A DNA stretch of 64,000 nt, taken from NCBI GenBank assembly GCA_026398875.1, contig JAPLSB010000024.1, positions 62,001 through 126,000 on the forward strand, given 5' to 3'. A model generated the notes under the pieces. That model searched no databases, was not told the origin of the DNA, and was given only the letters and a program-made list of their open reading frames with translations. Position 1 is the first letter of the stretch. Every line of letters begins with the position of its first letter. This DNA is from Gammaproteobacteria bacterium (lineage in GTDB: Bacteria; Pseudomonadota; Gammaproteobacteria; Nevskiales; Nevskiaceae). The position numbers and the translations under genes are program-made. Below, piece by piece: positions 38,068 through 49,104 of this stretch.

Positions 38068-39780
38068 TCAATCCTGCCGTTCGCGCCACCACAGCAGGCT
38101 GACCGTCAGCAGCCAGCCGAGCCAGAACGGCCAGCGCGGCAACGGCTGCGGCTGTTTGACCGGCGTCGGCTCGGCCGCCACGACAGCCGCCAGACGCTGC
38201 GTCGCTTCGCGGTCGCGCGCCGCGCGCAGGCCAGCGGCATCGTCGGCGGCGCGGACATACAGCGCGGTGGTCATGCCGCCGCTCTGCAGCTGATGCCAGC
38301 CGGCCGCACCGGGCCAGGCTGCCGCGCAACCGCTGGCTTCGACGAGCAAGGTCTGCACTGTGCCATCGGGCGCCTGCAGGCCGGCCGCAGCACCAAGCCC
38401 GCAGATCGTGAGCCGATCGCCGATCCAGCTGTCTCGCGGCAGCTGCGGCCCGCGCGCGGACGGCGGCACCGGGCGGCTGATCTGGGCAATCACATCGCTC
38501 CACAGCGCGCCGTAGCGGCTAGCATCGCCAGCCAGCACCAGTCGGTAGCTGTCGAGCAGCGTCCACAACGCGATGCGCCCGCCGCCGCGCGCAGTCCACG
38601 CGGCCAGCAGCTGACCATCGTCGGCGCGCAGCAGCGGTGTCAGCGCTGGCGTCGCATCGATGGCGACCGGGCCGGCAGTGAAAGCGGCGCGCTCGCGCAT
38701 CGCCAGACGCGCATCGAGCGTGACGGTAGCCGGCGTTTCGAGCGGCGTCGTGGCGATGCCGAGCGCGGCCCATTCGGCGGCGACCTCGGGCGCCAGCGGG
38801 CCACTGAGCTTCAGCAGCACGCCAAGGCCGCCATCGACCGCTGCCAGCAGCGCGGTCTTTTCATCCGCAGCCAGCGTTGCCCAGGCCCGCTCGTCGATGA
38901 CCAGCAGATCGCTGGCGGCGAGCAGCGTCAGCGTCAGCGGATCGAGCCCGACCGGCGCGCTGTCAGTCGACAGCGCAACACCATCGCTGAGCCAGGTGCG
39001 ATACGACACGAGCAGACCGGCGTCCTGCGCCCAACGCCGCCAGTACTTGGCATCGGCGTCCGGCGTTCCGGCCAGGTACTGCACTGCCAGCTGCTCGCCC
39101 GGCTCGATCAGCAACGGCACCGCCGCGTGATCGAGCAGCGCATCGGCGGCATCGACCGCCCGCAATTCGAAGCGCACCGGCCCGGCCGCGCGGGCGATCG
39201 CGGAGACACGAAAGCGGCCTTCGCCGTCGACCGCACTGACATCGACTTGTGCGCCGCTGGGATCGTGCAGCGCCACGCGCAGCGCCGGTGCAGCGGCCCG
39301 TCCCCGGATCTGGATCTGGGTGCCGACGTGCGCGTGCTCCGGCGCCTCGACGGCGACGATGCCGGCCTCCGGTGCTGCATCGAACTGCAGCGCCAGACCA
39401 GCCGCAGTGTCCTGATCGCGCGCTGGCAGGCCGTTGCCGATCACGCGCAGCCGGCGGCTGTCCGGGTGGCGGCGCAGTGCGGTTGCCAGATCAGGCACCT
39501 GATCCGGCAGCCGCTCGGCCTGCCCGGTCGCAACCGCGCCCGGCAGCGCGACCGCCTGCGTCCGCCATGGCAGCTTGCGCTGCTGCGCGGCGGTGGCGCC
39601 CGGTGTCAGCACCGTCAGTGTTGCGACATCGACCGGCAGCGATGGCGGCTGCAACGCAGCAGCCAGCAGAGCGCCCGCGACCGGCTGCAGCCACAGCCGC
39701 GCGTCGCGCCAGCCATGCCGGCGCGCGCGCCAGCTGCCGACCGCCGTGGCCAGCGCGATCAGCAGCAGCGCCGCGTTCAT
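38068..39780 (-). CDS. Membrane protein of MoxR/VWA cluster (GATase-like periplasmic domain)
   Basis: A 570-aa protein. It has N-terminal hydrophobic segments (MNAALLLIALATAVGSW, then a second near 30-45), a long middle domain, and a C-terminal anchor (WPFWLGWLLTVSLLWW). The middle resembles the GATase-like domains that accompany BatA-type proteins, with LLVIDERAW and GGLGVLLKLSGP stretches. Its ATG overlaps the stop of the DUF4175-like gene by 4 bases. It is the last gene of the cluster. Function is unknown, and a role in a membrane complex with the MoxR ATPase is inferred from context. Confidence 0.6.
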   Translation of the reverse strand: MNAALLLIALATAVGSWRARRHGWRDARLWLQPVAGALLAAALQPPSLPVDVATLTVLTPGATAAQQRKLPWRTQAVALPGAVATGQAERLPDQVPDLATALRRHPDSRRLRVIGNGLPARDQDTAAGLALQFDAAPEAGIVAVEAPEHAHVGTQIQIRGRAAAPALRVALHDPSGAQVDVSAVDGEGRFRVSAIARAAGPVRFELRAVDAADALLDHAAVPLLIEPGEQLAVQYLAGTPDADAKYWRRWAQDAGLLVSYRTWLSDGVALSTDSAPVGLDPLTLTLLAASDLLVIDERAWATLAADEKTALLAAVDGGLGVLLKLSGPLAPEVAAEWAALGIATTPLETPATVTLDARLAMRERAAFTAGPVAIDATPALTPLLRADDGQLLAAWTARGGGRIALWTLLDSYRLVLAGDASRYGALWSDVIAQISRPVPPSARGPQLPRDSWIGDRLTICGLGAAAGLQAPDGTVQTLLVEASGCAAAWPGAAGWHQLQSGGMTTALYVRAADDAAGLRAARDREATQRLAAVVAAEPTPVKQPQPLPRWPFWLGWLLTVSLLWWRERQD

Positions 39781-41870
39781 CGCGCTACCCCGCTCAAGCC
39801 ATCGAGCCAGGCCTGACCGGCAGCATCCGGCCGCCGCCGCGCCGCCACGGCTGCCGGTGGCAGCGGCAGCAGCGGCCACAGCCGGGCCGCGAGCGCGCGG
39901 CGACAGTCGGCACAGGCTGGATCGCGACGCAGACGGTCGGCCTCGGCCAGCAGGCCGAGCGCATCGGGCGTCTCCGGGTGCGCCTTGACCCAGGCCAGCA
40001 GCGGCGCCAGCGCGACCGGCTCGCGACCGTCGCCGTCCAGTTGCCGCAGCAGGGCCGGAAACGGCGTGTCGTCATCGACGCGCGGATCAAGCGGGCGACT
40101 GCGGTCGCTCAGGCCCTCGCGCTCGCCGCCGAGCCGGCGCGTGGCGTCGAACGGCGGCAGGTCTAGGCCGGTGCGCGCCCGATAGATGCGCTCGGCCTGC
40201 TGCAGCTGCTTGATCAGCGCCAGCGCCTTGTATTCGTAAGGCAGTGCTGCGTCCGGCTGGGCTTGCCGCAAGCGCAGTTCGGCTTGCCACATCTCGTTGA
40301 GTGCCGAGCGCAGCAGCACTTTCGTGGCCGGGTCCATCAGGGTGGCGGCTTCCGATTCGTTGTGCTCGTGCCCGTACTCGTGCAGGACGTCCTCCGCGCG
40401 GCCGAGACCGGCAGGCGCAGCTGCGGCTTCGCCTTCGCCTTCGTGCGGCGCACCGTTCTCGAATTCCTCGCCAAGGAACTCGCCGTAGCGCAGGCGCAGG
40501 ATCTTCTGATCGACGCCGAGCGTGTCGGCCTGCTCCTGCAGCTGATTGGCGCTGATCGTCGGCCGCGCCGCCAGCAGCGCTTCGGTGTCGATGATGATCT
40601 GGCGCTGGCTGCGGAAGTAGGCCGGCGCCACTTTCTGCAGACCGCCCTCCAGGCCTTCGCCGACGGCGCTGCTGTCGGCCGGCCAGCGCAGGATCAGGCT
40701 CGGGCTGCTGCTGCTTTGCGGCGTCGGCGCGCGCTGGTCGGCGACCGTCAGCCGCACGATCAGATCGTCGCCCTGCCCGTAGCCGAGCGCCGTCAGATCG
40801 AGCCGATGCCGGTAGCGCCGACGGCGCGCATCGCCGTCACCGGTCAGCGGCAGGCGCTGCTCGCGAACCTTGACCTGGTCGCCGGCGCCCTGGGCGTGGC
40901 TGATGGTCAGCTCGGCAGCGCCAAGCCCGTAGTCGTCCCTGGCTTCGAACAGCAGCAGCCATTCGGCCTGCGCAGCCCGGATCACGGTCAGCGTCTGCTC
41001 CGGTGCGCGAACGATGATCTCCGGTGGCTGGTCGGCCACGACGTCGAGGCGGTAGCCGCGATCATCGGCAAGGGCGGCGGCACCCCGCAGTTCGATCCGG
41101 TAGACGCTGGCAGCGTCGATCGTCCGGCTGCCCTGCCAGAAATCACCGGCGCGGCGCAGATCGAGCCGGCTGCCGTCGTGGAAGCTCAGCGTCACCGCTT
41201 CGGCATCACGGTCGAGCGCCAGCTGCCAGGCGACGGTACTGCCGGTCGGCACGCTTGCATCCGCCGTATCGACCCGGCGCGGCGGCAACTGCGTGTAGGC
41301 CGGTGGCGTGATCGCCAGCCGGACCGATACCAGCTGCGTGCTCCCTTCGGATCGGCGTTCGTCTGCCGCTGGCTGCGCGAACGCCACCAGCCACGGGCGC
41401 AGCTGCGGCAGCAGCAGCGTGAAGCCAGCCGCAGCCAGCGCGGCAGCGGCCAGCCACAGCAGCCGGCGGCGCGGCCACGGCGCGCGCAGGTCCGGCGGCG
41501 CCTGCGTCAGCTGCGCGACCATCCGAGCCCGGATACGCGCCTGCTGCAGCGCGGCCAGCGGGCCTGCCGGCAATGCTGGCTGCACGGCCAGGGCGCTACT
41601 GTCCTCGAAGGCCGGACAGGCGCTGTCGAGCCTGCGCAGCAGCCAGCCGAGATCGTGACGCGCGGCATGACGCCAGATCGCGAGGCCCAGACCGATCGCG
41701 CTGGCCAGCAGCACCGCCATGGCGGCCATCGACCCGCCCAGCGCACCGGCCAGCCCGGCCAGCGCGGCGGCCAGCGGCAGCACGGCCGCGCCATCGATCA
41801 GCGCAGCGCGCAACAGCACGGTTCGGCGCAGACGGCGCAGCAGCGGCAGCAGGGCGGTGTCGGCAGTCAT
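39777..41870 (-). CDS. DUF4175-like membrane protein of MoxR/VWA cluster
   Basis: A 697-aa protein. Two or three N-terminal hydrophobic segments (about 25-60 and 130-150) are followed by a large domain. It has ITPPAYTQLPPRRVD, an Ig-like region, and the long helical part LADQRAPTPQ to VAPAYFRSQRQIIIDTEALL. The order of segments and the ARDDYGL motif fit DUF4175. The ATG at 41870 overlaps the BatA-like stop (ATGA), so I use it instead of an upstream start at 41945. Periplasmic or coiled regions may scaffold partners. Function is unknown. Confidence 0.65.
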   Translation of the reverse strand: MTADTALLPLLRRLRRTVLLRAALIDGAAVLPLAAALAGLAGALGGSMAAMAVLLASAIGLGLAIWRHAARHDLGWLLRRLDSACPAFEDSSALAVQPALPAGPLAALQQARIRARMVAQLTQAPPDLRAPWPRRRLLWLAAAALAAAGFTLLLPQLRPWLVAFAQPAADERRSEGSTQLVSVRLAITPPAYTQLPPRRVDTADASVPTGSTVAWQLALDRDAEAVTLSFHDGSRLDLRRAGDFWQGSRTIDAASVYRIELRGAAALADDRGYRLDVVADQPPEIIVRAPEQTLTVIRAAQAEWLLLFEARDDYGLGAAELTISHAQGAGDQVKVREQRLPLTGDGDARRRRYRHRLDLTALGYGQGDDLIVRLTVADQRAPTPQSSSSPSLILRWPADSSAVGEGLEGGLQKVAPAYFRSQRQIIIDTEALLAARPTISANQLQEQADTLGVDQKILRLRYGEFLGEEFENGAPHEGEGEAAAAPAGLGRAEDVLHEYGHEHNESEAATLMDPATKVLLRSALNEMWQAELRLRQAQPDAALPYEYKALALIKQLQQAERIYRARTGLDLPPFDATRRLGGEREGLSDRSRPLDPRVDDDTPFPALLRQLDGDGREPVALAPLLAWVKAHPETPDALGLLAEADRLRRDPACADCRRALAARLWPLLPLPPAAVAARRRPDAAGQAWLDGLSGVAR

Positions 41871-43009
41871 CGCGGCTCGCGCGCGGATCGAGTCGCCAGC
41901 ACGCGTTCGAGCAGCGCCAGCGCGGCAATCAGCGGTATCAGCCACGGCAGCAGCGGCACGGCACGCGGCTTCGCGTCATCAGCGCCACGCAGCGGCGCGA
42001 CGCTGGCCGCCAGCGCCCGATCCGGCGTCGGCAGCGCCGGCCGCAGCCACGGCAGCAAGCGCTGCGGCAACTGCGGGTCGCGCAGCGCCGGCAGCTGCGC
42101 CGGGTCCAGCGGACCAGCCAGCGTGACGATCTGGCCACGGCCGACCCGCTGCCGGCGCAGCAACGGCTGGCCCAAGTCATCGCGCAGCAGCACCTCGCCG
42201 GCCTGATCGGCAGCATCCCCGCGCAGCAACGTCAGGCCGTCAGCAATCCGTGCCGACAGTGCCGTATCGATGGCGGCACCAGCGATCAGCAAGGAAGTAC
42301 CTTCGGGCACCGGCACGCCGTCTGCGGCTTCGTCGACGGCAAGCACCAGCCCGTCGGCACGCCAGGCGGCCAGCAGCGCCCGCGCCACCATTTGCGCCGT
42401 GCCGTCGGCCCGGATCGCGACGCGCAGCGGCGGTGGAGGCACGGCGGGCGTTGCCGGCGTCACCGTCGCGTCGGCGACGATCCGCCAGTCGACATCGCGG
42501 CCAAGCTGCAGGCGCTCGCCATCAAGGCCGCTCAGCAGCTCCGGGACAATCAGCGTCAGCCGCACGGTGCTCGGCAGCTCGGCATCGAGCGCCCGAATCA
42601 GGCTGATCAGGCGCGCTGCCGATTCCGGCTGTGGCGCAGGTTGAGCAAGCGACGGCAGGCCGGTGGCCAGCCAGTAGCCGTCGGCCGGCAACGCGCCAAT
42701 GGTGGCGCGTGCGCGTGCCGGATCGATGCCAGGCGCGACATAGACCCGAGTGGTCTCGCGGTCGCCATCGGCACGCCACAGCGGCTCGGCCAGCAGCACC
42801 GCCAGCAGCGCGATCAGCAGCATCCGCAGCGCCAGCAGCAGGCGTTGATCGAGCCGAAAACGGCGGCGCGGCGGGGTGCGCGCCATCAGCCAGGCGAGTG
42901 CCGCAAACGGGATCTCGCGCGCAGCAGAGCGGCGCAGCAGATGGATCACCAGCGGCACCAGCAGCGCGATCAGCGCCAGCGCGCCAAACGGCCTCGTCAG
43001 TTCGATCAC
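41867..43009 (-). CDS. BatA-like protein with N-terminal double-transmembrane domain
   Basis: A 380-aa protein. The N-terminus RPFGALALIALLVPLVIHLLRRSAAREIPFAALAWL is the BatA N-terminal TM domain, followed by a second hydrophobic segment, LLALRMLLIALLAVLLAEPLW. The rest is a VWA/GATase-like region without an intact metal-binding DxSxS motif, and it ends with a third anchor (LLPWLIPLIAALALLE). Its ATG overlaps the stop of the DUF58 gene by 4 bases. BatA-type proteins act with MoxR ATPases. The specific partner here is unknown. Confidence 0.75.
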   Translation of the reverse strand: MIELTRPFGALALIALLVPLVIHLLRRSAAREIPFAALAWLMARTPPRRRFRLDQRLLLALRMLLIALLAVLLAEPLWRADGDRETTRVYVAPGIDPARARATIGALPADGYWLATGLPSLAQPAPQPESAARLISLIRALDAELPSTVRLTLIVPELLSGLDGERLQLGRDVDWRIVADATVTPATPAVPPPPLRVAIRADGTAQMVARALLAAWRADGLVLAVDEAADGVPVPEGTSLLIAGAAIDTALSARIADGLTLLRGDAADQAGEVLLRDDLGQPLLRRQRVGRGQIVTLAGPLDPAQLPALRDPQLPQRLLPWLRPALPTPDRALAASVAPLRGADDAKPRAVPLLPWLIPLIAALALLERVLATRSAREPR

Positions 43010-43893
43010 CGAGGCGCGCCTCGAGCACCGAACAGGCGCTGCAGCGCCGCGTCGGCCGGCTCATCGAGCACCTGTTCAACGGCGCGCACGCCGTGCGTGG
43101 CCAGCTGTCGCAGCTGCGCCTGCCGATCGGCACCGAAGCGTTCGAGGAAGCGGGCGCGAGCGGCATCGGCGTCGAGCGTGCGGGCACGGCCGGTTTCCGG
43201 CTCCACGAAGCACGGGCTGCCAGTGAACGGGAAGCGGGCTTCGCCGACCGTCAGCAGGCGAATCATGCGGACATCACGGCGCGCCGCAGCCAGCTGCTGG
43301 CCGGCATCGAGCAGCGCGCCGTCGAGCCCGTCGCCGATCACCACGACCAGCGCGTCCGGCGCAATCCGTGCCGACAGCAGCGGCGGCACGGCGCGGGCAC
43401 AGTCGCGGCCATCGGCCTGCAGCGCCGCCAGCGCCAGCAGCAAGCGATCGCGGTGGCGCGCACCCGCTGCCGCCGGCAGACCTTGGGTGACGGCACCACC
43501 CACGGTGACCAGCCCGACGCTGTCGCCCTGGGCCACGGCGCGCTCGGCGATGCCGGCGGCAAGGATCTTCGCGGCATCAATACGCGCGTGCTCGGGGCGC
43601 TCCGGATCGGCCTGCGCCATCGACGCCGAGCAGTCGATGACCAGCCAGACGCTCAACGGCGTGTCGCGCGTGGCGTCGCGGACGAAATGGCGATCCGAGC
43701 GGGCGTAGAGCTTCCAGTCGATGTGCCGCGGCTCATCGCCCTGGCCGTAGGCGCGGTACTGGGCGAATTCGAGCCCGGCGCCGCGACCGCGGCCGGCATG
43801 CAGCCCGAGGCCCTGCCCGTCCGGCCGCAGGCGGCTGGCGATCTGCAGCCGCGCCAGCCGGGCACGAACGTCGGCCGGAATCAGCGGGCGCAT
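43006..43893 (-). CDS. DUF58 domain-containing protein (VWA-like)
   Basis: A 295-aa protein. The LEFAQYRAYGQGDEPRHIDWKLYARSDRHFV block is the DUF58 hallmark. It is followed by a von Willebrand A-type segment, SVWLVIDCSASMAQ, whose DCSAS satisfies the MIDAS DxSxS pattern. DUF58 proteins are standard partners of MoxR ATPases and may sense or bind clients. The start ATG at 43893 lies 46 bases after the moxR stop. Its stop overlaps the BatA-like start. Confidence 0.88.
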   Translation of the reverse strand: MRPLIPADVRARLARLQIASRLRPDGQGLGLHAGRGRGAGLEFAQYRAYGQGDEPRHIDWKLYARSDRHFVRDATRDTPLSVWLVIDCSASMAQADPERPEHARIDAAKILAAGIAERAVAQGDSVGLVTVGGAVTQGLPAAAGARHRDRLLLALAALQADGRDCARAVPPLLSARIAPDALVVVIGDGLDGALLDAGQQLAAARRDVRMIRLLTVGEARFPFTGSPCFVEPETGRARTLDADAARARFLERFGADRQAQLRQLATHGVRAVEQVLDEPADAALQRLFGARGAPR

Positions 43894-43939
43894 CGTGCGC
43901 GCCGCAAGGTCGCGGCAGCTGTCCGGTCGAAGCGCAGCT

Positions 43940-44920
43940 TCACGGCGCGGGCAGCGCGTCCAGCACGGCGGCAACGACCTCGTCGCTGCTGCGCGCCTCG
44001 GCCTCGGCAGCAAACGACAGCAGCAGACGATGGCGCAGCACCGGTGCCGCCAGCGCACGGACGTCGTCGCGGGTCGCCGCAAAGCGGCCATGCAGCAGCG
44101 CCCTCGCCTTGGCGGCCAGCGCCAGCGCCTGGCCCGCGCGCGGACCGGCACCCCAGCGCAGCCAGTCGCGCACACGGGCGACCTGCGTGTCCTGCGGCCG
44201 TGTCGCCCGCACCAGCCGAGTGATCCAGTTCAGCAGCTCATCGCTCAGCGGTACGTCGCGGGTCAGCCGCTGAAGTGCGATCACTTCATCGCCGGTCATC
44301 GCGGCCGTGATCGCCTGTGCCGCAGTGCCGGTGGTCTGGCGGATGATCGCCCGCTCTTCGGCCTCGCTCGGATAGTCGACGCGGATGTGCAGCAGGAAAC
44401 GGTCAAGCTGCGCTTCCGGCAGCGGATAGGTGCCGGCCTGCTCGATCGGGTTCTGGGTCGCCAGCACGAAGAACGGCTCGGGCAGCGGCCAGGTGGTGCC
44501 GGCGTACGACACGGTGTGCTCCTGCATCGCTTCGAGCAGCGCGGCCTGGGTTTTCGGCGGCGTGCGGTTCAGCTCGTCGGCCAGCAGCAGATTCGTGAAC
44601 ACCGGGCCTTTCTGGAACTTGAAGCTGCGGCGGCCGGTGCCGTGATCCTCTTCGAGAATCTCGGTGCCGAGGATGTCGCTCGGCATCAGGTCTGGCGTGA
44701 ACTGGATGCGCCGGAAATCCAGCGCCAGCGCCTGCGACAGCGAGCGCACCAGCAAGGTCTTGCCGAGCCCGGGTGCGCCTTCAAGCAGGCAATGACCGCC
44801 GGCCAGCAAGCCGACCAGCAACTGCTCGACCACCGCGCCCTGGCCGACGATGACCCGGGCAATGCCCTTGCGGACATCATCGAGACGGGCAAGCTGCTGC
44901 TGGATTTCGGCTTCGTCCAT
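43940..44920 (-). CDS. MoxR family AAA+ ATPase
   Basis: A 326-aa AAA+ protein. Walker A is EGAPGLGKT, Walker B LLLADELNRTPPKTQAALLEAMQE is the MoxR signature, and ATQNPIEQAGTYPLPEAQLDRF holds sensor 1. MoxR ATPases act as chaperones for metal insertion or complex maturation together with VWA proteins. The ATG at 44920 begins with the conserved helical region. A frame open to 45040 would translate an inverted-repeat element, so it is rejected. The intergenic region upstream is filled by that element. Confidence 0.93.
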   Translation of the reverse strand: MDEAEIQQQLARLDDVRKGIARVIVGQGAVVEQLLVGLLAGGHCLLEGAPGLGKTLLVRSLSQALALDFRRIQFTPDLMPSDILGTEILEEDHGTGRRSFKFQKGPVFTNLLLADELNRTPPKTQAALLEAMQEHTVSYAGTTWPLPEPFFVLATQNPIEQAGTYPLPEAQLDRFLLHIRVDYPSEAEERAIIRQTTGTAAQAITAAMTGDEVIALQRLTRDVPLSDELLNWITRLVRATRPQDTQVARVRDWLRWGAGPRAGQALALAAKARALLHGRFAATRDDVRALAAPVLRHRLLLSFAAEAEARSSDEVVAAVLDALPAP

Positions 44921-44950
44921 GGCTTCGTCAGCGGTTTCAAAGTCGGTGAA

Positions 44951-45150
44951 GAAAAAAGTTGAACGCAAAGGCGCAAAGGCAACAGAAAGGACGCAAAGGA
45001 GAAGCAGGAAACTTTTTCGGGTCCTTGCCTCGCAAGCCATCTCTGCGGCCGGTCTTGGCTGTTCCCAGAAAAGCTTCTGGCTTCTCTTTTCCTTGCCGTT
45101 CTCCTCTTGGCTGTTCTTCGCGCCTTTGCGTTGAACTTTTGCTTTTTCTG
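44951..45150. mobile_element. ~200-bp MITE-like inverted-repeat element
   Basis: The left end (44954-44976) reads AAAAGTTGAACGCAAAGGCG and onward. The right end (about 45119-45140), reverse-complemented, reads AAAAGTTCAACGCAAAGGCG and onward. They match over more than 20 bases with one mismatch. Inside, both sides carry A/G-rich versus C/T-rich arms that can pair. Base composition differs from the neighbouring genes. It lies between the DUF4159 and MoxR genes. No transposase is encoded. A dispersed, non-autonomous, REP- or MITE-type element is most likely. Confidence 0.65.
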
Positions 45151-45170: not shown

Positions 45171-45803
45171 TCAAGCAGTCAGCGCATAGACCACGATATT
45201 GACCGCGAACCTGGTGTTGTCCTCGGCATTGAAGCGCTTGTTGCGCCAGTCGTAATCCCACTCGCAGCCGTAGTCCTTGTTGCTGTACAGCACGCCGAGG
45301 CGGCCATTGATCTCGATGCCCTTGAGATAGTCGTGAACCAGGTCATCGCCCCAGCCGTTCAGCTCGATGGTGTTCGCTGGCGGGCCATCGAATGTGAAGA
45401 AGCTGGAATAGACCGCGTGCTGCTTCGGCAGCTTCTTCAGGCTGCTGTTGCCGAACATCGCGGCCATCTCGCGCTCGAAGCTTTTCGCGAACAGCCCGTC
45501 GATGTCGTGGTTGCAGTCATCGGCGAACACGAAGCCGCCGTTGCGGACGTAGGCCTCGAAGTTCTTCCGCTCGTCCGGCGTGAACTCCACCAGCTTGTTG
45601 CCGGCGATGTAGACGAACGGTGCGGTAAGCATCCGCGGGTCGGCCAGCGGAATGATCTTTTCTTCCGGGTCGACCCGAAGCGTCGTGTACTGCAGCAGCG
45701 TGTCGATGATGTTCGACGGCATCCGCTGATCGACGTCCCAGTTGCCGGACTCGTACTGCAGCCGGGTGAAACAGAAATCGTAGACCGCGGATGCCGTCGC
45801 CAT
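45171..45803 (-). CDS. DUF4159 domain-containing protein
   Basis: A 210-aa protein. FCFTRLQYESGNWDVDQRMPSNIIDTLLQYTTL, then MLTAPFVYIAGNKLVEFTPDERKNFEAYVRNGGFVFADDCNHDIDG, are characteristic of DUF4159, a GATase-like fold found beside MoxR/BatA clusters. No signal peptide is present, whereas many relatives have one. It lies 7 bases after the TldE-like gene, which links the peptidase pair to the MoxR set. Its function is unknown. Confidence 0.88.
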   Translation of the reverse strand: MATASAVYDFCFTRLQYESGNWDVDQRMPSNIIDTLLQYTTLRVDPEEKIIPLADPRMLTAPFVYIAGNKLVEFTPDERKNFEAYVRNGGFVFADDCNHDIDGLFAKSFEREMAAMFGNSSLKKLPKQHAVYSSFFTFDGPPANTIELNGWGDDLVHDYLKGIEINGRLGVLYSNKDYGCEWDYDWRNKRFNAEDNTRFAVNIVVYALTA

Positions 45804-45810
45804 CGTCCGA

Positions 45811-47145
45811 TCAGACCGCGTCGGACAATGACGTGAACGTGAACTCGCGGATCTTCATTGGCGGAATCAGCATGATGAATGGCGATTCGTCATCGCCGAC
45901 CCGCTCCGGCTTGCCGAGCTCGTCGACGTTGTTGAGCATGATCACCGGCGACTCGTTCCAGCGGAAATTCTTGATCGGATACTTGATCTCGCCGTTCTCG
46001 ATGTAGAACGTGCCGTCACGCGTCAGGCCGGTCAGCAGCACCGTCTGCGGATCCACCGAGCGGATGTACCAGGTGCGGGTGACGAGGATGCCCTTCTTGG
46101 TCGACTTGACCAGATCCATCGTCGACTTGTCGCCGCCGACCATGATCAGGTTGCCGGGCTGCCCGATCGCCTTGGCCTTCTTCGCCTTCGCCCAGTAGCG
46201 CGAGTACTGCAGGCTGTCGACCTTGCCATTGGTGATGATCGCCTGCTTCTCGCGCTTCAGCCCGTCGTTGTCCCATGGCAGGACGGCCGCGCCCGGATAG
46301 GCAGGGTCGGCAAACAGCGTGACCTTGTCGTCGAACACCTTTTCGCCCTGCCGGTTGCCACCGCCCTTCTTGGTCAGGAAGCTGCGGCCTTCGTCGGCGG
46401 AGCGGGCATCGAAGCCCTGCATCATGAAGCTGATCAGCCCGGCGCTCGCGGCCGGTTCGAGGATCACCGTGTACTTGCCCGGTTCCAGCGCCTTGGCATC
46501 GACCGACTGCTTGGCCTTGGCGATCGCGGTCTGGATCTCGGACTTCGCGTTGAACTGACTGACGTCGGCCACGTTGCGCGCCACCCAACCCGAACCGCGC
46601 GCGTCATCGGTACGCACGGTGCAAGTGAAGTCGACGTTGGTCGATTGCTGGTAGCCGAAGTTGCCCTTCGAGTTGGCGAGTGCCGAGAAGCGCACGGAAT
46701 CGCTGAAGAAGCCGGCGGCAACCAGTTTGCCGGCCTTCGACGGCGTGATGCTGTCAGCCGCCACCTGCGCCCGGTACTCCGGCGTGATGCCGGCCGTTGC
46801 GGCGACGTAGGTCGGCGTCGCGGCGTAGTCCTGCTTGCCGATCGCCGGCATGAATTCCGGATTGTCCGGTGCCAGCTTCGCGAGGTCTTCGGCGCGCTTG
46901 ACCACGCGGGCAAGTGCCGCGTCATCGAACTCGTTGATCGTCGCGATGCCGACCTTCTTGCCGAACGCGACCTGCACCGCCAGTTCGCAGTTGCTGACGA
47001 TGCCCGACGTCGACACCGAGTTCAGCGCATAGCGGATGTTGCCGGCCACCGAGCCTTCGAGCGACGCGGTGCATTCATCGGCCTTCGACAGCTTGATGAC
47101 CTTGTCGAGAATCGCCTTGGCTTGTGCTTCAGTGAAAATGCTCAT
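45811..47145 (-). CDS. TldD/PmbA family protein, TldE-like (no signal peptide)
   Basis: A 444-aa protein of the modulator-of-gyrase family. VAFGKKVGIATINEFDDAALARVVKRAEDLAKLAPDNPEFM is typical. There is no HExxxH motif, as expected for the TldE/PmbA-type partner that pairs with the metalloprotease TldD. The N-terminus MSIFTEAQAKAILDK is cytosolic in character. The gene lies 15 bases after the TldD-like gene, so the two probably form a heterocomplex. If so, this subunit would have to travel with the Tat-targeted partner, or the pair would not be assembled as in E. coli. Confidence 0.87.
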   Translation of the reverse strand: MSIFTEAQAKAILDKVIKLSKADECTASLEGSVAGNIRYALNSVSTSGIVSNCELAVQVAFGKKVGIATINEFDDAALARVVKRAEDLAKLAPDNPEFMPAIGKQDYAATPTYVAATAGITPEYRAQVAADSITPSKAGKLVAAGFFSDSVRFSALANSKGNFGYQQSTNVDFTCTVRTDDARGSGWVARNVADVSQFNAKSEIQTAIAKAKQSVDAKALEPGKYTVILEPAASAGLISFMMQGFDARSADEGRSFLTKKGGGNRQGEKVFDDKVTLFADPAYPGAAVLPWDNDGLKREKQAIITNGKVDSLQYSRYWAKAKKAKAIGQPGNLIMVGGDKSTMDLVKSTKKGILVTRTWYIRSVDPQTVLLTGLTRDGTFYIENGEIKYPIKNFRWNESPVIMLNNVDELGKPERVGDDESPFIMLIPPMKIREFTFTSLSDAV

Positions 47146-47160
47146 GGATAGACAGTGTCC

Positions 47161-48795
47161 TTAGCCGAGGCTGCGCGCGGTGTTGATGACATTGATGCCG
47201 TTGAACCGGGCCGTCGATGACCCGTGCGACACCGCTGATACCTGCGCCGGCTGACCCTTGCCGTCGAAGAACGAACCGCCAAAGCGGTAGTCGCGTTCGT
47301 CGCAGATCGCCGCGCAAGCGCCCCAGAATTCCGGCGTGCGGATCTGGTAGGCCACGTCTTCGATCTGCTCGGTGATCTTGCCGTTTTTGATCTCGAAGAA
47401 CAGCTGGCCGCCGAACTGCGCGTTGTAGCGCTGCTGATCGATCGAGAACGAACCGTCGCCAACGATGTAGATGCCGTTCTCGACACCCTTGATCATCTCG
47501 TCGACCGACAGCTTGGCCTTGCCCGGCGCCAGCGACACATTGGCCATGCGCTGGAACTGCACGCTCTGCCAGGAATCGGCATAGCAGCAGCCCTGCGAGG
47601 CCTTCTCGCCGATGATGTGGGCCTGATCGCGAATCGCCTGATAGTTGACCAGCACACCGTCCTTCACCAGATCCCAGCGCTTGGTCGCGATGCCTTCATC
47701 GTCGTAGCCAACCGCGCCGAGCGTTGTCGGCTGCTGCTTGTCGGCGAACAGCGTGACGTTCGGGCTGCCGTACTTGAAGTCCTTCGCTTTCCACTTGTCG
47801 AGCGTGGCGAAGCTGGTGCCGGCGTAGTTGGCTTCGTAGCCGAGCACGCGGTCGAGTTCCAGCGGATGGCCGACCGATTCGTGGATGGTCAGCCACAGGT
47901 GCGACGGATCAAGCACAAGATCGTACTTGCCGGGCTTCACCGAACGCGCAGTGAGCTTGGCGCGGGCCTGCTTCGCGGCAGCCACCGCGTCGCCGACCAT
48001 GTCGTACGAATCGGTATAGCCGACCACGCCACCCGGCAGCTTCACCTGCCCGGATGCCTTGGCATCGAGATACTCGTAGCCCATGCCCATCGGTGACGAC
48101 AGTTCGCTGCGCGTGCGGAACTTGCCGCTCTTCTTGTCGATCGCGGTGACCTGCATCGGCGTCCAGATGCGATGGATGTCCTGATCGATGTAGCTGTTGT
48201 CGGTCGAGGCGAAATACTTCTGTTCGTTGACGAGAAACATCGTCGAGTTGATGTAGTCAGCACCTGCCTTCAGGGCGGCGTTGTTGACCGCCATCAGCAG
48301 CTCGACCTTGTCCTTGACCGGCACCTGCATCGCATTCTTCTTGATCGGCGTGGCCCAGGAGACCTCTCCGACCCCTTTGGTCGGGGCCAGTTGTACCGGC
48401 GTAGTCTGGAACTTCGAGTTGGCCTTGGCGATCGCTGCAGCCTGCTGCGCGGCCTTGGCGATGGCATCCGGCGACAGGTCGCTAGTGGCGGCAAAGCCCC
48501 AGGTGCCGTTGACGATCACGCGGATGCCGATGCCGGTCGATTCGGTGTTGACCACGTTCTCGACGCGGGTTTCGCGAGTGATCACGAACTGCCGCAAATA
48601 GCGGCCGATTCGGACATCGGCGTAGGTCGCACCCGCCTTCGTTGCCGCGTTCAAGGCGGTGTCGGCCAGCGTCTTGCGCATTGCGCGGTCGGCCGGTGTG
48701 GCCAGCACCTCGGCCGCCACCGCATGTCCATAGACCGGCAGCATCAGCGCGCCGACACTGGTGCTTGTGCGTTTCAGAAAGTCGCGTCTGTCCAT
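47161..48795 (-). CDS. TldD-like metallopeptidase with Tat signal peptide
   Basis: A 544-aa protein. DRRDFLKRTSTSVGALMLPVYGHAVAA matches the twin-arginine consensus, with a short hydrophobic stretch and an A-V-A-A cleavage region. The peptidase motif is HESVGH (His305, Glu306, His310), the HExxxH zinc site of TldD. The domain with YADVRIGRYLRQFVITRE and NTESTGIGIRV is typical. E. coli TldD is cytosolic and processes microcin precursors and CcdA, so Tat export is a marked difference. The start ATG at 48795 directly precedes the RR motif. ATG at 48807 is possible. It heads the cluster. Confidence 0.88.
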   Translation of the reverse strand: MDRRDFLKRTSTSVGALMLPVYGHAVAAEVLATPADRAMRKTLADTALNAATKAGATYADVRIGRYLRQFVITRETRVENVVNTESTGIGIRVIVNGTWGFAATSDLSPDAIAKAAQQAAAIAKANSKFQTTPVQLAPTKGVGEVSWATPIKKNAMQVPVKDKVELLMAVNNAALKAGADYINSTMFLVNEQKYFASTDNSYIDQDIHRIWTPMQVTAIDKKSGKFRTRSELSSPMGMGYEYLDAKASGQVKLPGGVVGYTDSYDMVGDAVAAAKQARAKLTARSVKPGKYDLVLDPSHLWLTIHESVGHPLELDRVLGYEANYAGTSFATLDKWKAKDFKYGSPNVTLFADKQQPTTLGAVGYDDEGIATKRWDLVKDGVLVNYQAIRDQAHIIGEKASQGCCYADSWQSVQFQRMANVSLAPGKAKLSVDEMIKGVENGIYIVGDGSFSIDQQRYNAQFGGQLFFEIKNGKITEQIEDVAYQIRTPEFWGACAAICDERDYRFGGSFFDGKGQPAQVSAVSHGSSTARFNGINVINTARSLG

Positions 48796-49104
48796 CGGGA
48801 TCGCCATCTCCACAGGTTCAGGTCGGGTCGCGAGCCGGTCGCGTCACGGCTGATGCCGGACGTGCTGGATCACGAGATTGCCGTTGGACAGCCGCGGCGA
48901 GCGATTCGTTTGAACGGTCGCTCGAAACTAAATCGCGCGGTCCACACGGGCGGATGACTTCGGTCAGCAGGAATCGCGCCGTATCCGATGGGACAAGCGG
49001 CTTGCCAGCGGTTCCTGGCTCGGCCTGCGCACGGCGCCGGGCATGACGGACAAAAAAAGGGAGCGGCAGTCATCGACTGTCGCTCCCCGGTGGTCAGCAG
49101 CGCG
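48796..49104. other. Intergenic region with terminator, upstream of the Tld cluster
   Basis: The stretch holds a strong minus-strand terminator at 49052-49087 for the upstream subtilisin gene. The remaining 250 bases should contain the promoter of the Tld/MoxR cluster. I see no clear -35/-10 pair. Confidence 0.4.
49052..49087 (-). terminator. Rho-independent terminator after the subtilisin gene
   Basis: GGGAGCGACAGT on the minus strand pairs with ACTGCCGCTCCC around a 5-base loop, with one mismatch. A TTTTTTTG run follows. This is strong and isolates the protease gene from the Tld cluster. Confidence 0.88.

Follow-up and report, generated by a model that had tools for sequence, protein, structure and literature searches.

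The gene pair described here is best read, from its sequence, as encoding an exported variant of the TldD/E-type metallopeptidase, in which the catalytic subunit bears a twin-arginine (Tat) leader and the partner subunit bears none. The protease TldD/E of E. coli acts within the cell, where it matures or degrades peptides. The pair lies in a stretch of 64,000 nucleotides of a gammaproteobacterial contig, which as a whole is called the window below, and all window coordinates refer to its minus strand.

The tld gene pair and its leader

The upstream gene (47161..48795), recognised as an open reading frame with characteristic motifs and Pfam matches, encodes P0001, a TldD-like metallopeptidase of 544 residues and the catalytic subunit of the pair. 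Its ATG is at 48795 and its N-terminus reads MDRRDFLKRTSTSVGALMLPVYGHAVA-AE. The leader comprises residues 1–28 (48712..48795), with MDRRDFLKR followed by an uncharged hydrophobic stretch and with AVA before AE at a cleavage site that was read by eye. Alternative starts further upstream, at 48807 or 48813, would retain the twin arginine as well. The metal site of the HExxxH type, HESVGH, occupies residues 305–310 (47866..47883). The stop codon of this gene is separated by 15 nt from the start of the downstream gene (45811..47145, ATG at 47145), which encodes P0002, the TldE-like, non-catalytic partner of 444 residues. As the original prediction for this DNA had stated, P0002 has neither HExxxH nor a leader; its first predicted helix begins five residues after its start. 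In each subunit the three PmbA/TldD domains of Pfam all score above the curated cut-offs, and both are members of the TldD/TldE (PmbA/TldD) metallopeptidase superfamily. The presence of HExxxH in TldD and its absence from TldE also hold for 10 whole-pair stretches in relatives.

We compared the pair with 80 related loci, the best of at least 572 matches in a contig scan whose query combined eight aligned Tat-type TldDs; TldE was not used in the selection, and the sample represents the Tat-type TldD family, not TldD at large. The named phyla among the rows are Pseudomonadota, Bacteroidota, Chlorobiota and Acidobacteriota. Counting genes on the plus strand of at least half length gave 130 TldD-like and 93 TldE-like members, and 129 TldD-like N-termini were scored, one being cut. 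In all 129 a start codon falls exactly on the aligned M1 and the motif is followed by an uncharged hydrophobic stretch; RRx[FLM] occurs within the first 10 residues of 128, with RK in the remaining one. Beyond residue 40 of these proteins the same pattern turns up only three times in 64,629 residues, so its presence at 128 of 129 N-termini is above chance. By these features, the window TldD-like protein is one that carries a Tat leader conserved in its relatives.

The TldE-like proteins present the opposite picture: neither a strongly hydrophobic 16-residue stretch nor an RR motif was found in or before the N-terminus of any of the 93. A misplaced start that hides a leader was considered and rejected, since in 85 of the 93 genes the 80 codons upstream contain no in-frame start; in 60 there are fewer than 15 open codons upstream. 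The claim that only one member of the pair carries a Tat signal therefore holds for the window and, with 128 of 129 TldD-like against 0 of 93 TldE-like proteins, for its relatives.

The two genes also keep a fixed arrangement. A whole TldD gene stands upstream on the same strand of 90 of the 93 TldE genes, at a median distance of 24 nt (range 11 to 270) that stays under 40 nt in 62 of the 90 pairs. The three unpaired cases are two cut TldE genes and one TldE behind a cut TldD, so wherever both genes are whole, TldE lies downstream of a TldD. Two loci (L047 and L057) have no TldE of half length, and in L057 the start of one is present at the contig end.

The metal site and relation to canonical TldD/E

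The metal ligands of E. coli TldD are His262, His267 and Cys454, and the site is held together by Lys456, Glu270 and Asp272 (PMC5810440). Alignment places Asp511-Gly-Lys of the window TldD (47257..47265) on Cys454-Gly455-Lys456 of the E. coli protein, so that its third ligand would be Asp511 and not Cys. The equivalents of Glu270, Asp272 and Lys456 are retained, and we infer a putative His-His-Asp metal site. The same source names Asp as a possible replacement of Cys454 in the TldD of Gemmatimonas sp., in a passage that does not mention a leader, export or a partner (PMC5810440).

Does the Asp ligand go with the leader? Taking each distinct sequence of the C-terminal 250 residues once gave 230 rows, from which 22 rows without a ligand letter and two misaligned canonical TldDs were left out of the ligand count. 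A leader classifier assigned RR to 165 of the Asp forms, RK or KR to 5 and none to 5, two more being cut at the N-terminus; among the Cys forms it assigned none to 27, KR to one and RR to one. Inspection by eye moved two Asp forms (L202 and L204, with an RRDFLR motif) from none to leader-bearing, and the two Cys hits (L219 with KR, L214 with RR) were judged not to be leaders. Thus, all 172 leader-bearing TldDs with a readable ligand have Asp (165 RR, 5 RK or KR, 2 by eye), and all 29 Cys forms lack a leader (27 by classifier, 2 by eye), although the 80 nearest loci supply 120 of the 177 Asp rows. Three Acidobacteriota proteins (L199, L201 and L203) are Asp forms without a leader. They rule out a strict one-to-one link and indicate that Asp does not require export.

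We also placed 108 rows on a quick tree, which drew on every kept column, that of the ligand among them, and came with long-branch warnings. On this tree the leader changes at least five times and the ligand three times. L208 and L210, which have both leader and Asp, are placed among Cys forms that lack a leader. L129, L139 and L140, all Cys forms without a leader, fall inside the Asp group under a long-branch warning. Well-supported independent pairs number two; on average, ligand and leader agree in 1.2 of them, and in none do they run counter to each other. With only two such pairs the link is not a statistical result, and we take these data as suggestive of an Asp ligand that goes with the leader. 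A possible reason for the exchange is the risk that oxidising surroundings pose to a thiol ligand.

How does the window pair relate to the E. coli-type pair? The source genome (24 contigs) contains four PF01523 matches, namely the window pair and a separate pair on two other contigs, so the possibility that the former is the only Tld pair of this genome was discarded. The separate TldD is leaderless, with HEAVGH and CGKDGQ, and its partner is a leaderless PmbA/TldE. Identity of the window proteins to this canonical pair is 23% and 24%, and they fall far short of the NCBIfam equivalog cut-offs for E. coli-type or archaeal TldD (71.5 bits against 513 and 134.8 against 635). Compared with E. coli TldD/TldE (PmbA; PDB 5nj5), the window pair has in common three Pfam domains in each subunit, HExxxH in TldD only and the equivalents of Glu270, Asp272 and Lys456, and modelling predicts a heterodimer for it; it differs by the Tat leader and by Asp in place of Cys454. 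The original comparison with E. coli TldD and TldE therefore has to be amended, given the canonical pair in the same genome, the low identity to it and the other third ligand. By sequence, the window pair is distantly related to the E. coli-type pair and is not that pair itself.

The distribution of the Tat-type TldD family outside the 80-locus set is patchy. At E <= 1e-20, and with leaderless relatives included, P0001 has matches in 12 of 41 relatives and in 22 of 185 genomes of its class. At the same threshold and likewise with leaderless relatives included, the alignment has matches in 16 of 299 genomes of the phylum; the corresponding figures are 14 of 148 for the phylum to which a Spirosoma genome belongs and 21 of 119 for that of an Acidobacteriota genome.

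Probable export of one subunit or of both

The asymmetry of the leaders had been taken to mean that TldE is carried through Tat as a hitchhiker, or else that TldD acts outside without it. Both options survive our analysis, and we judge it reasonably probable that the heterodimer is co-exported with TldE as the hitchhiker. Three observations favour hitchhiking: TldE lies downstream of TldD, half of the genomes that were searched whole have no untagged TldD with which TldE could pair, and the two subunits are predicted to dock.

The second observation comes from 14 genomes, chosen for spread among the 80 loci and searched whole with PF19289. In seven of them (G510–G514, G519 and G523) the 25 matches consist of 13 Tat-tagged TldDs and 12 leaderless TldEs, with no others found in the assemblies. 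Another genome, G522, resembles these seven and was left out of the count, one TldD being cut by a contig end; the remaining six have further Tld members.

The prediction of docking comes from AlphaFold2 models of TldD and TldE joined in one chain, the only combination modelled. The fused window chain gave a pTM of 0.79 (39 sequences), and a Spirosoma pair fused through a linker of 43 codons gave 0.81 (38 sequences). By our reckoning, two halves that each fold well but take no set position to one another would give a pTM of little over 0.5. In the Spirosoma model the linker region is disordered (residues 517–564 are below pLDDT 50), so the linker hardly forces the docking. Compared with the PDB, the window model has TldD or TldE/PmbA chains as its 16 best matches, every one of which covers about half of the fused chain.

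Co-export is also what we hold most likely in view of known systems. Tat carries folded complexes, and partners that have no signal ride along, as in HybOC and the 135 kDa PaoABC (PMC4273604). In E. coli TldD/E, which is about 65 Å wide, both subunits are required for activity (PMC5810440). The window pair resembles HybOC hydrogenase and PaoABC aldehyde oxidoreductase in being a putative metal-bearing oligomer with one Tat-led subunit and one leaderless partner; it differs from these redox enzymes in being a peptidase, one whose co-export is a proposal. TatC is encoded in the source genome. We envisage that TldD and TldE, made from adjacent genes, would both fold, load metal and form a hollow heterodimer in the cytosol, and that the complex would then cross the membrane by Tat on the leader of TldD alone. 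Outside, the His-His-Asp TldD would trim unfolded peptides entering the shared cavity, as can be surmised from E. coli TldD/E.

The other option, which we regard as unlikely though well ahead of those that follow, is that exported TldD does without TldE on the outside, acting as a homodimer or as a pair of TldD paralogues, and that TldE stays in the cytosol, for example as a holding partner during TldD folding and metal loading before export. It would account for the lack of a leader on every TldE of the 80 loci. Two or three TldD-like genes are present at 49 of these loci (L046, L051, L083 and L094 among them), 34 of which have a single TldE, so some TldD may act without TldE. According to PMC5810440, E. 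coli TldD and TldE can each homodimerise, and an active TldD homodimer from Sulfolobus, reported elsewhere, is cited there; however, the same source finds activity in E. coli only with both subunits and describes the TldD homodimer as too unstable to purify. The predicted docking of TldD with TldE, the pairing that was modelled, also speaks against this option.

There is little to recommend a third explanation, in which the leader is non-functional and both proteins are cytosolic, or translation begins past the twin arginine. Cytosolic TldD/E is the known form, and in-frame start codons between RR and residue 40 in 123 of the 129 TldD-like genes leave room for a true start downstream of the motif; a leaderless TldD product from such a start is possible. 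On the other hand, 128 or 129 of the 129 genes, across four phyla, retain the M1 start, the RR motif and the hydrophobic stretch, and Asp at the metal site accompanies the leader. It is very improbable that TldE exits independently, through a pathway that needs no classical leader: we found nothing in its favour except the absent leader itself, and the adjacent Tat-tagged partner would make a separate route unnecessary.

Operon context and meaning

On the minus strand the gene order is TldD, TldE, DUF4159, MoxR, DUF58 and BatA. The DUF4159 protein (45171..45803) is leaderless in the window. It is followed by three conserved neighbours: a MoxR-type AAA ATPase (43940..45040, longest ORF), a DUF58 (vWA-like) protein (43006..44175, longest ORF) and a BatA/two_anch membrane protein (41867..43009). 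Relatives match the MoxR ORF mostly from about residue 40, and the DUF58 ORF overlaps the end of MoxR; the true starts of both are therefore probably downstream of the longest-ORF starts. Two large ORFs (39777–41945 and 38068–39879) continue the gene row after BatA; a Pfam search at E 0.05 matched neither.

Of the 80 loci (L040–L119), 63 have DUF4159, some of the others being cut by contig ends. At least 47 of these 63 relatives have a signal-like leader, often with RR or R-A/K-x-F-L; the figure is a lower bound, as the classifier missed leader-like DUF4159 proteins that were seen by eye (L053, L061, L043 and L105). RR was assigned by the classifier in 18 of the at least 47, in at least two of these (L083 and L097) by chance, owing to the chosen start. 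The leader is absent from the window protein and from all nine Bacteroidota relatives. The DUF4159 leaders fit an export-related operon, and a second Tat passenger is a possibility that these sequences raise.

Searches of the open-licence literature returned nothing for TldD with a Tat signal or for modulator of DNA gyrase with twin-arginine, nothing that joins TldD or PmbA to twin-arginine (PMC11508158 has the terms, unjoined in the text retrieved) and no mention of DUF4159. In S. maltophilia, an operon has been described that contains a MoxR ATPase gene and two genes for TldD, and some of its genes are downregulated in biofilm in all isolates; its authors treat TldD as a gyrase inhibitor (PMC7688217). 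Its gene content, as given there, fits that of the window operon, and it is probably an operon of the same type, although the match is by content and not by locus tags.

Combining these observations, we tentatively propose, while doubting that every part will hold, a system of at least six genes spread over several phyla: an extracytoplasmic TldD/E, assembled in the cytosol with help from MoxR and the vWA proteins, that would exit by Tat with TldE (and DUF4159 where this has no leader) as passengers, its Cys ligand replaced by Asp to avoid an exposed thiol where conditions are oxidising. The help in assembly, from MoxR, DUF58 and BatA, is speculation.

If exported, the window pair would represent a peptide-trimming cage outside the inner membrane, and its co-export would bring a peptidase into the group of Tat hitchhikers. 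In the family one could also follow, as a natural series, how a metal ligand and an export leader changed together, and it would provide a setting for the adjoining DUF4159-MoxR-DUF58-BatA genes.
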